From the NCBI GenBank assembly GCA_013388415.1, contig JACADU010000207.1, forward strand, positions 1 through 46,512: 46,512 nt of DNA, read 5' to 3'. Position 1 is the first letter of the stretch, and each line of letters opens with the position of its first letter. This document shows positions 2,467-20,356 of the stretch, in pieces. The position numbers and the translations under genes were made by a program. The notes under the pieces are model-generated. The model was not told the DNA's origin and searched no databases. It was given only the letters and a program-made list of their open reading frames with translations. Origin of the DNA: Bryobacteraceae bacterium. Lineage in GTDB: Bacteria; Acidobacteriota; Terriglobia; Bryobacterales; Bryobacteraceae.

Positions 2467-2694
2467 ATGGAAGTCAATATCCACGAAGCCAAGACCCACC
2501 TGTCGCGGCTGATTGAGCGGGCGTTGGCGGGAGAGGAAGTCATCATCGCCAAGTCAGGCAACCCGGTGGTCCGGTTGGTTCGCATCGAATACGCGAAGCC
2601 GGAACTCGGAAGCGCGGCAGGCCAGTTCACGCTGAAAAAGGGCTGGGACGCGCCGCTGACGGACGGTGAAATTGCAGGGCTTTTTGAACGATGA
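2467..2694 (+). CDS. Phd/YefM-family antitoxin
   Basis: This 75-residue protein begins MEVNIHEAKTHLSRLIERAL, the signature N-terminus of the Phd/YefM (VapB-like) DNA-binding antitoxins, followed by the beta-hairpin GEEVIIAKSGNPVVRLVRI. The C-terminal part (about residues 40-75) should wrap around the toxin and is typically disordered when free. Its stop overlaps the toxin start by four bases (ATGA), so the pair is translationally coupled. A palindrome in the promoter just upstream fits autoregulation by the antitoxin-toxin complex. Length and layout are normal for the family; nothing suggests decay. The same antitoxin N-terminus recurs in the fused remnant near 36.3 kb. Confidence 0.9.
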   Translation: MEVNIHEAKTHLSRLIERALAGEEVIIAKSGNPVVRLVRIEYAKPELGSAAGQFTLKKGWDAPLTDGEIAGLFER

Positions 2695-3074
2695 AGCTCC
2701 TTTTGGACACGCCCGCCTTCCTGTTTGCCATTGGGGATCCAACGCAACTCTCGGACGCGGCTCGGAGATCATTGTTGAAGACATCCAATCAGCGATTTGT
2801 GAGCGTGGTCTCGTTCTGGGAGATCGCCATCAAGACGCAGATCGGGAGGTTGGATCTCCCCACCGACGTGGGGTTCTACGAGGAACACCTCCGCCGCTTG
2901 TCCGCGGTCGTGCTGCCCGTGGAGGCACGCCACACCTTCGAGTTGCTCCGCCTGCCGATGATTCATAAAGATCCGTTCGACCGGTTGCTGGTGGCGCAGG
3001 CGCGGGTCGATGGGCTGACGGTCCTGTCTCGGGACGAGTTCATCGCGCAATATGAAGTGCGGGTGCTATGGTGA
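2691..3074 (+). CDS. vapC: PIN-domain VapC-type toxin
   Basis: This 127-residue PIN-domain protein should be a magnesium-dependent endoribonuclease held inactive by the antitoxin encoded immediately before it. The acidic residues of the PIN site are present: Asp6 in KLLLDT, Glu44 in SFWEIAIK, Asp94/Asp97 in HKDPFDRLL and Asp115 in VLSRDEF. The usual His after the first motif (DTHA) is Pro here (DTPA), a small departure. The family is the short bacterial PIN subgroup that pairs with Phd-type antitoxins. The start overlaps the antitoxin stop. The site looks complete, so the toxin should be functional. Target RNA unknown. Confidence 0.9.
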   Translation: MKLLLDTPAFLFAIGDPTQLSDAARRSLLKTSNQRFVSVVSFWEIAIKTQIGRLDLPTDVGFYEEHLRRLSAVVLPVEARHTFELLRLPMIHKDPFDRLLVAQARVDGLTVLSRDEFIAQYEVRVLW

Positions 3075-14656: not shown

Positions 14657-14690
14657 GAACCAGTTGCCCGGATGGCGGCAGCGGCGGCGG

Positions 14691-14717
14691 TTAACTCCGC
14701 CGGCGATTCCTTATACT
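14691..14717 (+). promoter_or_regulatory. Possible internal promoter before the DUF4956 gene
   Basis: TTAACT (14691-14696) and TATACT (14712-14717), spaced by 15 bases, lie in the 84-base gap after the sensor kinase. AGGAG and the DUF4956 ATG follow. Spacing is short, so this is a tentative secondary promoter. It would allow the envelope gene set to be expressed apart from the hydrogenase. Confidence 0.35.
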
Positions 14718-14740
14718 CTGTTAGACCAGGAGTTGATCCC

Positions 14741-15559
14741 ATGCCTGAGAGTAAGGGCAAACAAGAGGGATACTGGCATTTCGCACTGGCGCTGTTGTTG
14801 TGCGGCGGTCTTGTGGCGGTGTCGATGGCCTGGCCTCAGCATTTCTCGCAGGTGAAGAGCGCCGCTGATTCCAGCCTGGCCGCCCTTTTCGGCGGAAGCT
14901 CAGACGCGAAAGAGCCCCCGATGTTCGAAGCTGCCTGGGCGGAGCTGGTCAAGCTCATCGCCGCCGGTCTTGTCGGGATCATGGTGACCGTCGTTCATCG
15001 CCGCTATCGTGGCCCAAGCGCGCCAAACCGGTCCCTGATGCAGGCCGCGGTCCTGCTCTGCATCTCCGGCGCGCTGATGATGATCATCATCGGCAACTCC
15101 ACCGCGCGCGCCCTCGGCATCGCGGGCGGCGCCAGCATCATCCGCTTCCGAACCCCAGTCGAAGATCCCAAAGACGCGATTCTGCTGTTCATCGTGCTGG
15201 CGCTTGGCATGGCGACCGGGCTCGGCGCCTTCGCCGTGACAGGACTGGCGACGCTCTTCCTCTGCCTCTTCCTCGCCTTCCTGGATTACTTCGGACACGA
15301 GAAGCCAAGGAGCCTCAACTTGGAACTTGTCGCGGCCGGCCGGGACTTCCCGCTCGAGCATGTTCAGGCCGTGCTCCGTGGCGAGGTGGACTTCTTCGAG
15401 CCGCTGAAGGTCGTTCACGGGAATGAATCCGCCATGAGATTTCTGGTCAAGGTGAATCCCGGCGCCTCGCTGGCCTGGATCAGCGATCAGTTGATGGCAG
15501 GCGGCACGGGAGGCCTGAAGTCTGTAAGCTGGGAACCTGTAAAGAAATCGGCGGAGTAG
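14741..15559 (+). CDS. DUF4956 family membrane protein
   Basis: The ATG at 14741 has AGGAG eight bases upstream, which decides it over the longer ORF. The 272-residue protein has about five membrane segments: near 13-31, 70-90, 105-125 and two within 145-185. The diagnostic loop ARALGIAGGASIIRFRTPVED resembles the MgtC-like/DUF4956 signature. A soluble C-terminal domain of about 85 residues follows, probably cytoplasmic. Family members often sit beside VTC-type polyphosphate polymerase and CotH genes. Here CotH is present three genes down, but no VTC domain is seen. The role is unknown; a part in phosphate or polymer handling at the inner membrane is inference from neighbours. Confidence 0.82.
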   Translation: MPESKGKQEGYWHFALALLLCGGLVAVSMAWPQHFSQVKSAADSSLAALFGGSSDAKEPPMFEAAWAELVKLIAAGLVGIMVTVVHRRYRGPSAPNRSLMQAAVLLCISGALMMIIIGNSTARALGIAGGASIIRFRTPVEDPKDAILLFIVLALGMATGLGAFAVTGLATLFLCLFLAFLDYFGHEKPRSLNLELVAAGRDFPLEHVQAVLRGEVDFFEPLKVVHGNESAMRFLVKVNPGASLAWISDQLMAGGTGGLKSVSWEPVKKSAE

Positions 15560-15565
15560 AGGCGA

Positions 15566-16480
15566 ATGGCGGCAGAACGGCTCATATTGGCTCGGGAACA
15601 GCGGCGCGACACCTTCCTCGAGCTGATCGGCGCGGCACGGCAGCGGATCATCCTGTCCATGTTCCGCTGCACGGACTTCAAGATCATGGACGCCCTCGCA
15701 GATGCGCAGGAGCGCGGCGTGTCCGTCGAACTGCTGTTGACTCAGCGGGCCAAGGGTTGGGAGAAGAGGATCCGCGAACTGGGCCAGTACCTGGAGAGCA
15801 TGGGCGCCAAGGTCCACCGCTATGGCGAGCCGCGCATCAAATACCACGCCAAGTACCTGGTTATCGACGGCAGCCGCGCGCTGATCGCCTCGATGAACCT
15901 GATGAAGCGCTATTTCGAAAAAACGAGCGACTTCCTTCTGGCCACGGACGACCCCGACGTGGCGGCGAGCCTCGAACGCCTCTTCCGCCACGACATCGAA
16001 CACCCTGGCCAGCCTGTCCCGGAGGGTCTGTCCCCGAGGCTTGTCGTGGGCCCCGAAATGTCCCGGGCGCGCCTCGGAGGGATGATCGAGAGCGCTCGAA
16101 AATCCCTTGTGATTGCCGATCACCGGATCACGGATCGCGACATGATCGTCCTGCTCGAGAAGGCGGAACAGCGAGGCGTCAGAGTCGTTATCTTCGGCAA
16201 GAACTCGCTCGCCCGCTTCAAGTCCCACGGCAGGGCAATGATCGTGGACGGCGCGCGCGCCATGATTGGCAGCATCTCCATGGCTCCTCCGTGCATGGAC
16301 CTCCGGCGCGAGCTTGCCGTCACCTTCGACGCGCCCGGTCTGGTGGCCGAACTTGCGCGCTTTCTCGATGAATCCAGAGCCCGGCATCCCGCGGAGACTC
16401 TGATGCCGGTCGCCGTGGCGGTCGAATCCGGACACGATGACGAACACGACGATGAGGACGAGAAGGAGAGCGACGAGTGA
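15566..16480 (+). CDS. Phospholipase D-like protein with one altered HKD motif
   Basis: The 304-residue protein has the two-repeat PLD fold. Repeat one carries a canonical motif, His94-x-Lys96-x4-Asp101 (YHAKYLVIDGS, then IASMN). Repeat two reads His221-x-Arg223-x4-Asp228 (SHGRAMIVDGA), so its lysine is replaced by arginine. There is no signal peptide or membrane segment, so it should stay in the cytoplasm. The C-terminus ends in an acidic tail (GHDDEHDDEDEKESDE). The family cuts or transfers phosphodiester bonds in lipids or nucleic acids; which applies here is not visible. It starts six bases after the DUF4956 stop and overlaps the porin start, so the three are co-translated. Confidence 0.8.
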   Translation: MAAERLILAREQRRDTFLELIGAARQRIILSMFRCTDFKIMDALADAQERGVSVELLLTQRAKGWEKRIRELGQYLESMGAKVHRYGEPRIKYHAKYLVIDGSRALIASMNLMKRYFEKTSDFLLATDDPDVAASLERLFRHDIEHPGQPVPEGLSPRLVVGPEMSRARLGGMIESARKSLVIADHRITDRDMIVLLEKAEQRGVRVVIFGKNSLARFKSHGRAMIVDGARAMIGSISMAPPCMDLRRELAVTFDAPGLVAELARFLDESRARHPAETLMPVAVAVESGHDDEHDDEDEKESDE

Positions 16481-17760
16481 CGCCGCTGCCGCGGATTCTG
16501 CTGGGCGTCTTCATGGCTGTTGCGCCGCTGCTGGCGCAGGATACCGAACAGGAAAAGGAACAGGCGGAGAAGGAACCCGCCAACAAGGGTGTCCGCTCCG
16601 TCTGGAAAAAACACCCCTCCTTCCGTGCTGGCGATTGGCTCCGCGTCGACTTCCGCGCCCGCTTCCAGCTCGATTGGATCACCCGGGATCCCGAGACCAA
16701 GCCGGGCGGCGGCCTGTTCGATTTCACCAGAAAGCGGTTGGCGATCGAAGGAACCTTCCTGCGCTGGTTCGAGTACGAGGTCTCCCGCGAACTGTCCGAG
16801 ACGGACTTCCCCTGGAAGGACGTCTACGGCAATTTCAAGCTGAACCGCTCGGTTCAGGTCCGCGGCGGACGCTTCAGGATTCCATTCAGCCAGGACCAAT
16901 TGACGGGTCCGACCAACCTCGATTTCATCGACCGCTCGCGCATTGCCGACCGCCTCGCGCCCAATCGCGACACCGGCGCCATGGCGCACGGCTCCTTCTT
17001 CGAAGGCGGAGCCCTGAAGTACCAGGCAGGCTACTTCTTCAACGATGGCGACAACGCCGCGGACAGAAACAACAACAGAACCGGGGAAAACACGGCAGCC
17101 CTGCGGCTCACCGGGCGTCCGTTGTCGAAGAGCGGCTTGTTCGGCAGCCTCACTCTGGGCGGCGCATTCAATCGCGCCGGCGTGCCCGAAGGCTTGGTGA
17201 GTCTGCGCGGCAGGACCACCGGCAAGGAGACCTTCTTTTCGGAAGTATTTGTGAATGGAACGAGAATGCGGACCGGCGCCGAGTTTTCATGGACGCCGGG
17301 ACCTTTCGCCCTGAAGGCGGAGTTCATCTCCGTCCGGGAACAAAGGCTCGGCCAGGGACTGCGCCAGGAGGACCTCCCGGATCTTCTCGAAAGAGGCTGG
17401 TATGTCTATGGGACATGGGCCATCACAGGTCAGAACAAGGCGAGGGGGCTGGCGCGCGGCAGGGGTTGGCTCCTGGGCGGCAAGAACCGGTTTGGCGCCC
17501 TTGAACTCGCCGTCCGCGCCGAGAGCATCAGGTTCGCCAGCGATACCAATGCCGGACGCCCCTCCCGCACCCAACGCGCTGCCAATATCCTCCAAACCAG
17601 CGACCGGGCGTGGACTTTTGGCGTCAATTGGTATGCGAACCAATGGGTGAAGGCCCAGGCGAACTTCACCCGCGAGTATCTGGAAGACGCGTTCCGCGCC
17701 CCCATCCAGGGAGTGAATTTGTACTGGGTCTACAAATACAGGCTTCAGCTTTCGCTTTGA
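16477..17760 (+). CDS. OprO/OprP-type outer-membrane porin
   Basis: The 427-residue protein starts at a GTG that overlaps the PLD stop (GTGA). A signal peptide (ILLGVFMAVAPLLAQ) is followed by a charged helical stretch (DTEQEKEQAEKEP), as in the N-terminal coiled coil of phosphate-selective porins. The rest alternates polar and aromatic residues as beta-barrel strands. Family-type segments are FDFTRKRLAIEGTF, VRGGRFRIPFSQDQLTG and YEVSRELSE. OprO/OprP relatives take up phosphate or pyrophosphate, but the family name is applied widely and selectivity cannot be read here. Its place between a DUF4956/PLD pair and CotH makes a phosphate-linked envelope role plausible. Confidence 0.82.
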   Translation: MTPLPRILLGVFMAVAPLLAQDTEQEKEQAEKEPANKGVRSVWKKHPSFRAGDWLRVDFRARFQLDWITRDPETKPGGGLFDFTRKRLAIEGTFLRWFEYEVSRELSETDFPWKDVYGNFKLNRSVQVRGGRFRIPFSQDQLTGPTNLDFIDRSRIADRLAPNRDTGAMAHGSFFEGGALKYQAGYFFNDGDNAADRNNNRTGENTAALRLTGRPLSKSGLFGSLTLGGAFNRAGVPEGLVSLRGRTTGKETFFSEVFVNGTRMRTGAEFSWTPGPFALKAEFISVREQRLGQGLRQEDLPDLLERGWYVYGTWAITGQNKARGLARGRGWLLGGKNRFGALELAVRAESIRFASDTNAGRPSRTQRAANILQTSDRAWTFGVNWYANQWVKAQANFTREYLEDAFRAPIQGVNLYWVYKYRLQLSL

Positions 17761-17791: not shown

Positions 17792-18988
17792 ATGGGTAGG
17801 CGGATCTGCGGTTTGGCCGTCGTGTTTGCGGCGTGCGCTTTCGGACAAACCGCGGAAGATTTCTTCAGCGACAAGGTGCTTCACGACATTCGCATCACCA
17901 TCCATCCCAAGGATTGGAATGCGCTCGTGGAAAACTACCTGGACAACACATATTACCCCGCCACCCTCGAGTGGCGGGACCTAGTGATCGAAAACGTGGG
18001 AATCCGCTCCAAGGGGCGGACAAGCCGGCGCGCGACAAAGCCGGGGTTGCGCGTGGATTTCAACCGGTATGAGGAACAGGAGTTCCTGGGCCTCAAGGCT
18101 GTTCTGCTGGACAACAACGTCTCCGACTTCGGCATGATGCGCGAGCGTCTGGCCTCCATCCTGTGGCGCGAAATGGGACTGCCCGCGCCGCGTGAGACGC
18201 ACGCGCGATTGTTTGTCAACGGCAAATACATGGGCGTGTACACCTTGCTCGAGGACACCGACAAGCGCTACCTCAGGCAGTGGTTCAAGGAGGACTCAGG
18301 CTGGCTCTACGAGTTCGTTCATCGCGACAGCTACCGGTTCGAGTACCTCGGCTCCGACCCTGAAGCCTACGTGCCCGTCCTGTTCAAACCCGAAACCAAC
18401 GAGTCTCATCCCGAGGGTGAAGTGATCGCCGAGATGCTGCGCGTGATCAATCAATCCTCCGACCAGGACTTCCCAAAGGCGATCGAGGAGTATCTCGACG
18501 TCAAGGCGTTCCTGACGCACATGGCTGCCGAGTCCTACGTGGCCGAATGGGATGGCATCCTCAGCGATGCCGGGGTGAACAACTTGTACTTTTACCGCTT
18601 CTCCGGCGGCAAGCGCGGCATGGTGTTGTTCAAGGACAAGGACCTCAGCTTCAATGGGATCGAGTACGAGGTCCTGAAGAACGCCGGCAACAACGTCCTG
18701 ATGAGGCGCCTGATGGCGGTCCCCGATTGGAAAGCTTTCCTGTATGACGAGATTCGCCGGGCGGCAGCGCTCGCGGGAGCCACGGACGGTCTGCTCGACC
18801 AGCAGGTTCAGGTCATCTACGGCCAGATCCGCGAGGCGGCGCTGGCGGACGAACTGAAGGAGTGCAGCAACGGCGTTTGCCCGGTGTATGAATCGAACGC
18901 CGAATTCGAAAGGCACGTCGAGTTCCTGCGCGACTTCGCCAGAAAAAGGGCCGACGAAGTCGTGCGGCAACTGGGATTGATGCAATAA
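17792..18988 (+). CDS. CotH-type secreted protein kinase
   Basis: The 398-residue protein has a signal peptide (CGLAVVFAACAFGQ) and a full CotH domain. Recognisable segments are IRITIHPKDWNALVENY at the start, VGIRSKGRTSR, LRVDFNRYEEQEFLGLK, MMRERLASILWREMGLPAPR, ARLFVNGKYMGVYTLLEDTDKRYL, and FKDKDLSFNG, which corresponds to the catalytic DxD region. CotH proteins are atypical kinases; the Bacillus one phosphorylates spore-coat proteins. Many Gram-negative homologues are exported, and some lie by DUF4956 and VTC-type polyphosphate genes. GGAGAGGCAGAGG lies upstream. It is the last gene of the rightward run and ends 14 bases before the end of an opposing gene. Confidence 0.88.
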   Translation: MGRRICGLAVVFAACAFGQTAEDFFSDKVLHDIRITIHPKDWNALVENYLDNTYYPATLEWRDLVIENVGIRSKGRTSRRATKPGLRVDFNRYEEQEFLGLKAVLLDNNVSDFGMMRERLASILWREMGLPAPRETHARLFVNGKYMGVYTLLEDTDKRYLRQWFKEDSGWLYEFVHRDSYRFEYLGSDPEAYVPVLFKPETNESHPEGEVIAEMLRVINQSSDQDFPKAIEEYLDVKAFLTHMAAESYVAEWDGILSDAGVNNLYFYRFSGGKRGMVLFKDKDLSFNGIEYEVLKNAGNNVLMRRLMAVPDWKAFLYDEIRRAAALAGATDGLLDQQVQVIYGQIREAALADELKECSNGVCPVYESNAEFERHVEFLRDFARKRADEVVRQLGLMQ

Positions 18989-19002: not shown

Positions 19003-19587
19003 TCAGCGGACGCGCAACCGCCGCAGGCGGCCGGTGTGGGCATCCTTCTTGAACAGTTCGTGCAGTGTCTCCAGCATCTCCCGCCGGTCAAAACGCGCGG
19101 AGATCCTCTCAGTCTGCGAGAAGCAGAACTCCGGGAAACCGGACATCGCGCGCGGCTTCGCGGCGAGCGCGGCGCGGCCCGGTTCCAGCCAGAACGACGC
19201 CTTCGGGGCGGGAGCGAATTCGAACAGGTCTGAGAGCCACTTCGACGAAAGCCCGGCCGCCTTGCCGGCGAGGACTGCTGTTCGTGTATACGGCGCCGCG
19301 ACTACCGTGTATCCTTCCGCGAGCGCGGGCTCGATTTCCCAGCGCAGGCGGAATGCGAGATCCGCCGCATAGAGGATGAGCAGCGTCTTGGCCGAGGGCG
19401 GATCGCACTGCTTGGCGTGGGCCGACAGTTCGTGAAAGATCGAAGACGCATCCCAATAGCTGCAACCGCCCCTTCCCTTGGGCGCGCGGCAGATGTGTAG
19501 CAGATGGCGCGCCGCCGAACGCAGGTCCGCTGAATGGGAGGCTTCAAGCGCTACCAGCCGGCCCGGCGCCGGCGCCGAATCAGTCAT
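19003..19587 (-). CDS. Thymidylate-kinase-like protein lacking the P-loop (predicted pseudokinase)
   Basis: The 194-residue protein aligns by eye along its length with the kinase encoded just upstream. LVALEASHSADLRSAARHL matches LIAFEGPDGAGKTTQRKLF. ILYAADLAFRLRWEIEPALAEGYTVVAAPYT matches the region around CLFHAADYRHRLETEILPALCKGKTVIADRY. The P-loop is replaced by ASHSADLRS (residues 16-24), and the catalytic Asp-Arg of DRY by Ala98-Pro99. It therefore should not bind ATP in the usual way. Thymidylate kinases are dimers, so it may form a heterodimer with its neighbour as a regulatory or substrate-binding half. It overlaps the active gene by eight bases and has GGAGG seven bases before ATG. 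The ORF is intact, so it is not simply decaying. Confidence 0.7.
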   Translation of the reverse strand: MTDSAPAPGRLVALEASHSADLRSAARHLLHICRAPKGRGGCSYWDASSIFHELSAHAKQCDPPSAKTLLILYAADLAFRLRWEIEPALAEGYTVVAAPYTRTAVLAGKAAGLSSKWLSDLFEFAPAPKASFWLEPGRAALAAKPRAMSGFPEFCFSQTERISARFDRREMLETLHELFKKDAHTGRLRRLRVR

Positions 19588-20356
19588 TGTGCGCCTCCGG
19601 CCGGCACATTAAATACTCCGCCACCGCTCTGGCGTTGTACTCCTGCCAGGAACGCCGTTCCCCCTCCTGGAACAGCCGCCGGATCGCCCTGTGCTGCTCG
19701 TAGATCGATTTCTCGGCGTCGACTGTGGAGAACCTGAAGATCAGAGCCAAAGCCGCGTACTCCTGAATGACGCGCCCCATGAACTGCTCATAGCTGGCGG
19801 CGGGATCGCTGATCCCGGTGACGTCCTGTCCAGCTTCGTAGTAGGACGGAACTCCCCCGGCAAGAACCCTCTTGGCCGATGTGCCTGGAGTGACGGCGAA
19901 ATGGAAGACAACGTCGGGCCAGAGGATCGGACCATACAACCGGAGAACCCAATGAAAGTCGAGACCTCGGGCGGCGTCGCGCGCCAGACCCGTGAACAGA
20001 TAGCGATCGGCGATGACCGTCTTGCCCTTGCAGAGCGCCGGCAGGATCTCGGTCTCCAGCCGGTGACGGTAATCCGCCGCATGGAACAGGCAATACTCCA
20101 GCGGGCTCAAAACGCGGATGCTCTTGCGCGTTCGTGTCAGGGGCTTGACCAGCTCCGACGAATTCCATTTGGTCGTCACGGCATCGTGGCCCTCGCCCTT
20201 GAGCCATGTTCGGAACAGCTTTCTTTGCGTCGTCTTCCCGGCGCCGTCGGGCCCTTCGAATGCGATCAGCAGCCCTCGCCTCTGCTCTAATTCGGCGATG
20301 ATCTTCTTCAACTCACCAGGGGTGAGATGCGCCGGACGTGCGGGTTTCGAAGACAA
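19580..20356 (-). CDS. Thymidylate-kinase-family P-loop kinase
   Basis: The TTG start is set by a strong GGAGG seven bases upstream. The 258-residue protein has a helical N-terminal extension of about 28 residues (LTPGELKKIIAELEQRRG), then Walker A GPDGAGKTT (35-43) and the DRY motif at 117-119, both hallmarks of thymidylate kinases. It is longer than normal dTMP kinases (about 205-215 residues) and paired with a dead copy, so the substrate may not be dTMP. Possible alternatives are another nucleotide or, given neighbouring genes, a phosphate-polymer-related substrate; this is inference. Transcribed with the pseudokinase and probably the nitrilase-type gene 74 bases upstream, and convergent with the DUF4956-to-CotH run. 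Confidence 0.82.
   Translation of the reverse strand: MSSKPARPAHLTPGELKKIIAELEQRRGLLIAFEGPDGAGKTTQRKLFRTWLKGEGHDAVTTKWNSSELVKPLTRTRKSIRVLSPLEYCLFHAADYRHRLETEILPALCKGKTVIADRYLFTGLARDAARGLDFHWVLRLYGPILWPDVVFHFAVTPGTSAKRVLAGGVPSYYEAGQDVTGISDPAASYEQFMGRVIQEYAALALIFRFSTVDAEKSIYEQHRAIRRLFQEGERRSWQEYNARAVAEYLMCRPEAHND

Follow-up and report, generated by a model that had tools for sequence, protein, structure and literature searches.

The window analysed here, a stretch of 46,512 nucleotides from a Bryobacteraceae bacterium (phylum Acidobacteriota; assembly GCA_013388415.1, contig JACADU010000207.1), carries two adjacent thymidylate-kinase-like genes, termed here T2act and T2dead (Table 1). T2act starts with TTG, preceded by AGAGGAGG, and T2dead starts with ATG, with GGAGG upstream at a spacing of 6 nt. 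Both genes have good ribosome-binding sites, and the initial annotation was right that they overlap and that the second is an open frame; the 8-bp overlap suggests that their translation is coupled. T2act has both Walker A (GxxxxGK[ST]) and DR[YWH], reading GPDGAGKTT at residues 35-43 and DRY at 117-119, whereas T2dead has neither: its corresponding residues are ASHSADLRS (16-24) and APY (98-100), just as had been described. T2act also contains the motifs WNSS and HAADYRHR and a C-terminal extension, and the WDASS and LLILYAADLAFRLRW helices are retained in T2dead.

Table 1. Features of the gene pair and its neighbourhood in the window, with recurrence of the neighbours among 35 homologous loci.
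Feature	Coordinates	Strand	Details
Active thymidylate-kinase-like protein T2act	20356-19580	(-)	258 aa; Pfam PF02223 E 2e-21
Pseudokinase partner T2dead	19587-19003	(-)	194 aa; best PDB matches ST1543
Reading-frame overlap of T2act and T2dead	19580..19587	(-)	8 bp, seen in sequence
CotH kinase-family protein	17792..18988	(+), convergent to pair	PF08757 E 2e-49; 23/35 loci
Phosphate-selective porin O/P-like protein	16477..17760	(+)	PF07396 E 1e-31; 22/35 loci
PLD-like protein	15566..16480	(+)	PF13091 E 7e-31, weak PP_kinase_C matches; 31/35 loci
DUF4956 membrane protein	14672..15559	(+)	PF16316 E 5e-10; 20/35 loci

The earlier proposal that both genes encode one fold is borne out by a BLASTP alignment (29% identity across 135 aa, E 7e-10) and by a common best match in the PDB, although T2dead scores only 18.4 bits against a 27-bit cut-off for the Pfam Thymidylate_kin family. 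That match is ST1543, the dTMP kinase of Sulfolobus tokodaii (PDB 2plr, 4nzy, 4rzx, 5h70), and none of the four subunit types considered here, including the two of a second pair type described below, has a closer relative in the PDB. Its entry 2plr is the top profile match for T2act (E 4e-47) and T2dead (E 5e-18), and it ranks first for both in Foldseek. AlphaFold2 models, built from alignments of the loci proteins only, gave a pLDDT of 95.6 for T2act, with a TM-score against ST1543 of 0.87-0.90 by target length (its best PDB match), and a pLDDT of 92.1 with a pTM of 0.88 for T2dead, the fold of which is therefore predicted to be intact. By sequence and fold, both proteins belong to the ST1543-like (archaeal-type, WNSS) subfamily, in which WNSS replaces EPGGT. 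ST1543 carries HATDF in helix alpha-3 and shares DRY and a normal P-loop with the active copies. However, it lacks the C-terminal extension of T2act and its N-terminal helix, an extra element that had been noted from the sequence, that is predicted at residues 13-26 and that lies in an N-terminal extension present in all complete window-type homologues. Furthermore, the deposited structures of ST1543 contain one chain type, in contrast to the two subunits encoded here.

A scan with the T2dead profile of one genome per species (GTDB) found 29 loci, nearly all of them titled Acidobacteria; the few others are metagenome-assembled genomes titled as other phyla, and those that could be matched to the genome search belong to the window's phylum. 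Together with the window and the loci from the genome search, these form a set of 35 loci, some from close relatives. T2dead immediately follows the active copy, in the same orientation, at all 34 loci whose contig covers the upstream flank (at the 35th, L060, a contig end cuts it off). Of these 34 pairs, 25 overlap, by 4-37 bp when starts are picked automatically. GxDGxGK[ST] is kept in 34/34 active homologues with this region on the contig. In a sample of 396 genomes from the phylum the active copy occurs in 12, 11 of which also have T2dead, and among 121 relatives T2dead accompanies the active copy in 8 of 8 cases. Neither a natural fusion of the two, which would have favoured a partnership, nor a T2dead in viral contigs was seen.

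The expectation that the two genes always occur together holds in one direction, as no intact T2dead lacks an adjoining active copy wherever the contig permits the test, but there are exceptions in the other. In genome G248 (L119) the active gene is intact and T2dead is truncated after about 25 codons, followed by unrelated sequence; G058 retains only a broken remnant as its sole trace of T2dead; and G109 has, besides a normal pair, a divergent solo active-like copy (L041:6520-7360). Decay of the dead copy in relatives, named beforehand as counting against a partnership, therefore does occur in part. In addition, a phage-like contig (IMG/VR, L156:146-796) encodes a lone thymidylate kinase of the WNSS type, adjoining genes that resemble terminase and portal genes. 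G248, G058, the solo copy of G109 and the phage relative count against a strict dependence of the active copy on the dead one.

The losses in T2dead are fixed. The P-loop GxxxxGK[ST] is found in none of the 35 homologues, and the residues in the place of DRY are A, P and Y in 95, 95 and 100% of the family, which forms one clade with full support. Invariant residues (W45, S48, F51, Y73, A74, D76, F79, R80, L81, W83 and I85) sit in the WDAS segment and a long helix spanning 66-90, and conservation is concentrated in helices alpha-2 and alpha-3, with a weakly conserved C-terminal half. In thymidylate kinases, the dimer interface is formed by helices alpha-2 and alpha-3, which also line the pocket for the acceptor, and we take the WDAS segment and helix 66-90 of T2dead to be these same regions. 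Close pairs, which have lineages in common and so are not independent, gave dN/dS values of 0.04-0.55 for T2dead, none reaching 1 where dS was usable; for the active copy the range was 0.07-0.19. The suggestion that T2dead is under selection agrees with all of this, and its monophyly, its place behind the active copy and these ratios support the conclusion that it is an old, monophyletic and selectively maintained protein. The loss of the catalytic motifs, the score under the Pfam cut-off and the broken copies in G248 and G058 might suggest a chance open reading frame or a decaying duplicate; this is scarcely credible given 35 open homologues across the phylum, a sequence conserved even in the changed motif, a fold predicted to be intact and dN/dS below 1. 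Decay in particular is ruled out by the conservation, the predicted fold and these ratios.

T2dead thus has two marks of a pseudoenzyme: none of its members retains the catalytic residues although the predicted fold is intact, and an intact copy occurs only alongside its active paralogue. Since a kinase and a twin without an ATP site have been kept adjoining across the phylum, the twin is very likely a partner subunit. It could instead work on its own as a sensor or binding protein, without binding T2act, and have simply inherited its place in the operon. Its faster evolution than its partner (dN/dS of about 0.3 against 0.12, and longer branches in the tree), its weakly conserved C-terminal half and its truncation in G248 beside an intact active copy would fit such a protein. 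We regard this as quite improbable, as adjacency and order are strict, the genes overlap, T2dead is never intact alone and its conservation is focused on helices alpha-2 and alpha-3.

T2act resembles canonical Tmk in its fold, P-loop and DR motif, but its acceptor-site motifs are replaced: compared with the Tmk encoded elsewhere in the same genome, EPGGT has become KWNSS and FxAxR has become HAADY. That the genome has this separate canonical Tmk with EPGGT and that T2act carries WNSS and HAADY supports the earlier proposal that T2act is not a standard dTMP kinase. Its score against the NCBIfam dTMP kinase equivalog TIGR00041 is 83.1 bits, under the cut-off of 83.25 (T2dead scores 13.5), and neither protein matches the PPK2 profile PF03976 up to an E-value of 1. 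The pair is not a duplicate of the canonical Tmk either, since both copies are ST1543-like. These features point to a remodelled acceptor site in T2act and not to any particular acceptor. In the lid region T2act of the window has Gly168 in place of an arginine present in 86% of its relatives, which leaves some doubt about its own activity.

The neighbouring genes, mostly on the strand opposite to the pair across the 35 loci, offer some indication of its role. The initial annotation had singled out DUF4956 and CotH, and both do recur, but the PLD-like protein accompanies the pair more constantly than either (Table 1) or any other neighbour; a metallophosphatase gene also lies near the pair at 22 of the 35 loci. 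The combination of PLD-like, CotH, porin and DUF4956 genes recurs in many families. The PLD-like protein has two HKD motifs. In the second, most homologues have the lysine, but L056, L066, L067 and the window have arginine instead. An anti-phage defence function was considered and rejected, as good PADLOC matches (DrmC, MkoB) were confined to the PLD-like protein and no partner genes were seen. A cluster for a VTC-type polyphosphate polymerase was likewise rejected, with no VTC match in the genome (assembly 84% complete). Elsewhere in the window, at 2467-3074, the sequence contains what looks like a gene pair for a small Phd-like antitoxin and a PIN-like toxin.

A second type of pair from the same subfamily, here called type 1, was found among weaker matches in relatives, most of which were such adjacent pairs and not single kinases. 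It consists of an intact copy followed by an adjacent copy with an altered Walker A motif (for example GIDGSGKST and GPD-VGRST), as at L049:8822-10265 and 32 further loci. The first member has GxDGSGKST in 33/33 loci and the second has lysine replaced by arginine in Walker A in 33/33. This division of labour, with one intact and one altered copy in the same order, parallels the window-type pair, although type 1 differs in that just this lysine is changed and DRY is kept, while T2dead has lost both motifs. About 40 of the 396 genomes in the phylum sample (~10%) have type 1 matches, almost always two adjacent ones, one of the 40 (G248) being in fact a window-type active copy. The neighbours differ as well: at 12 type 1 loci with long flanks, Ppx/GppA (exopolyphosphatase) is present at nine, CHAD at ten and a SixA-like phosphatase gene at six, and two of the 12, from one family, have none of the three. 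The dead and active window-type subunits and the Lys-to-Arg subunits each form one clade, and the intact type 1 copies group together in a larger tree; for the origin of the pairs by duplication, alternative groupings were not rejected (p-AU 0.51 and 0.47). In plasmids, a search with the intact type 1 copy gave nothing closer than remote Tmk-like matches, all under 60% identity.

These observations bear on a rival explanation, in which the pair serves nucleotide salvage, with T2act as a kinase for dTMP or another NMP and T2dead as a stabilising subunit without catalysis, and has no link to polyphosphate and only incidental neighbours. The best structural relative, ST1543, was deposited as a dTMP kinase, T2act falls just short of the TIGR00041 cut-off, and a lone relative on a phage is what would be expected of a plain nucleotide kinase; given that relative, the ST1543-like subfamily may contain ordinary nucleotide kinases. 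We nevertheless consider salvage unlikely, because the genome has its own Tmk while T2act lacks EPGGT and FxAxR, the neighbourhood recurs across many families, and the paralogous type 1 pair lies beside Ppx, CHAD and SixA-like genes.

For the window pair, a link to polyphosphate is suggested only by its neighbourhood, and several known systems are relevant to it. The window's genome encodes PPK1, two PPK2 and Ppx/GppA and hence does not require the pair as its only polyphosphate enzyme; the Ppx-CHAD locus of this genome is without a type 1 pair. On another contig (C308; L157:1622-3210) two PPK2 genes are adjacent, with Walker A intact in both. A SixA-PPX-dTMP kinase-CHAD locus is conserved in Sulfolobales (PMC10892726), the order from which ST1543 comes. 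A distinct family of polyphosphate kinases has been reported from Crenarchaeota (Hofmann et al., 2026, J Biol Chem 302:111283, as cited in PMC13318637), and it possibly belongs to the same subfamily as the pair, because PMC10892726 names no kinase other than the dTMP kinase for the Sulfolobales locus. Moreover, PA3455 of Pseudomonas aeruginosa, a class II two-domain PPK2, fuses an inactive and an active domain (PMC8776046). There too, inactive and active thymidylate-kinase-like copies make up one polyphosphate-linked enzyme, but as a fused chain and in another family (T2act has no PF03976 match), and with the inactive half first, whereas it is second in the window pair. For the crenarchaeal polyphosphate kinase family, we know of no pseudokinase partner.

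The best explanation, which we hold with moderate confidence, is a co-translated kinase-pseudokinase heteromer of the ST1543-like WNSS branch that probably acts in phosphate or polyphosphate metabolism and not in making DNA precursors, its assembly as a heterodimer, its regulation and its substrate being the more conjectural parts. T2act, the upstream subunit, would bind ATP and transfer its phosphate. T2dead, with neither P-loop nor DR motif but with the fold and helices alpha-2 and alpha-3 retained, would most likely fill the position that a second protomer has in the usual dimer, where it could shape the acceptor site or regulate T2act. Class II PPK2 of P. aeruginosa is a precedent for such an active-inactive partnership in a sister family (PMC8776046). 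The acceptor is probably not dTMP; it would be a phosphate compound handled by the CotH, phosphate-porin-like, DUF4956, PLD-like and metallophosphatase neighbours, for which polyphosphate and a phosphorylated component of the surface are the leading candidates. A broader proposal is possible but doubtful: that the ST1543-like branch comprises polyphosphate-linked kinases, which in Acidobacteriota would be obligate kinase-pseudokinase heteromers of two kinds. The Lys-to-Arg type would be a housekeeping form beside Ppx and CHAD, and the window type would be tied to an envelope module of PLD-like, CotH, DUF4956 and phosphate-porin-like proteins without VTC, making or delivering polyphosphate or phosphorylating an envelope substrate.

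If the partnership is real, proteins now annotated as dTMP kinases, or left unannotated below the Pfam cut-off, would turn out to be two-subunit kinases with a dead partner. The thymidylate-kinase family would then join those in which enzymes are paired with pseudoenzymes, and would do so in two forms. Furthermore, the function of the recurrent DUF4956, CotH, PLD-like and porin gene set would become testable through a soluble, expressible pair of proteins.
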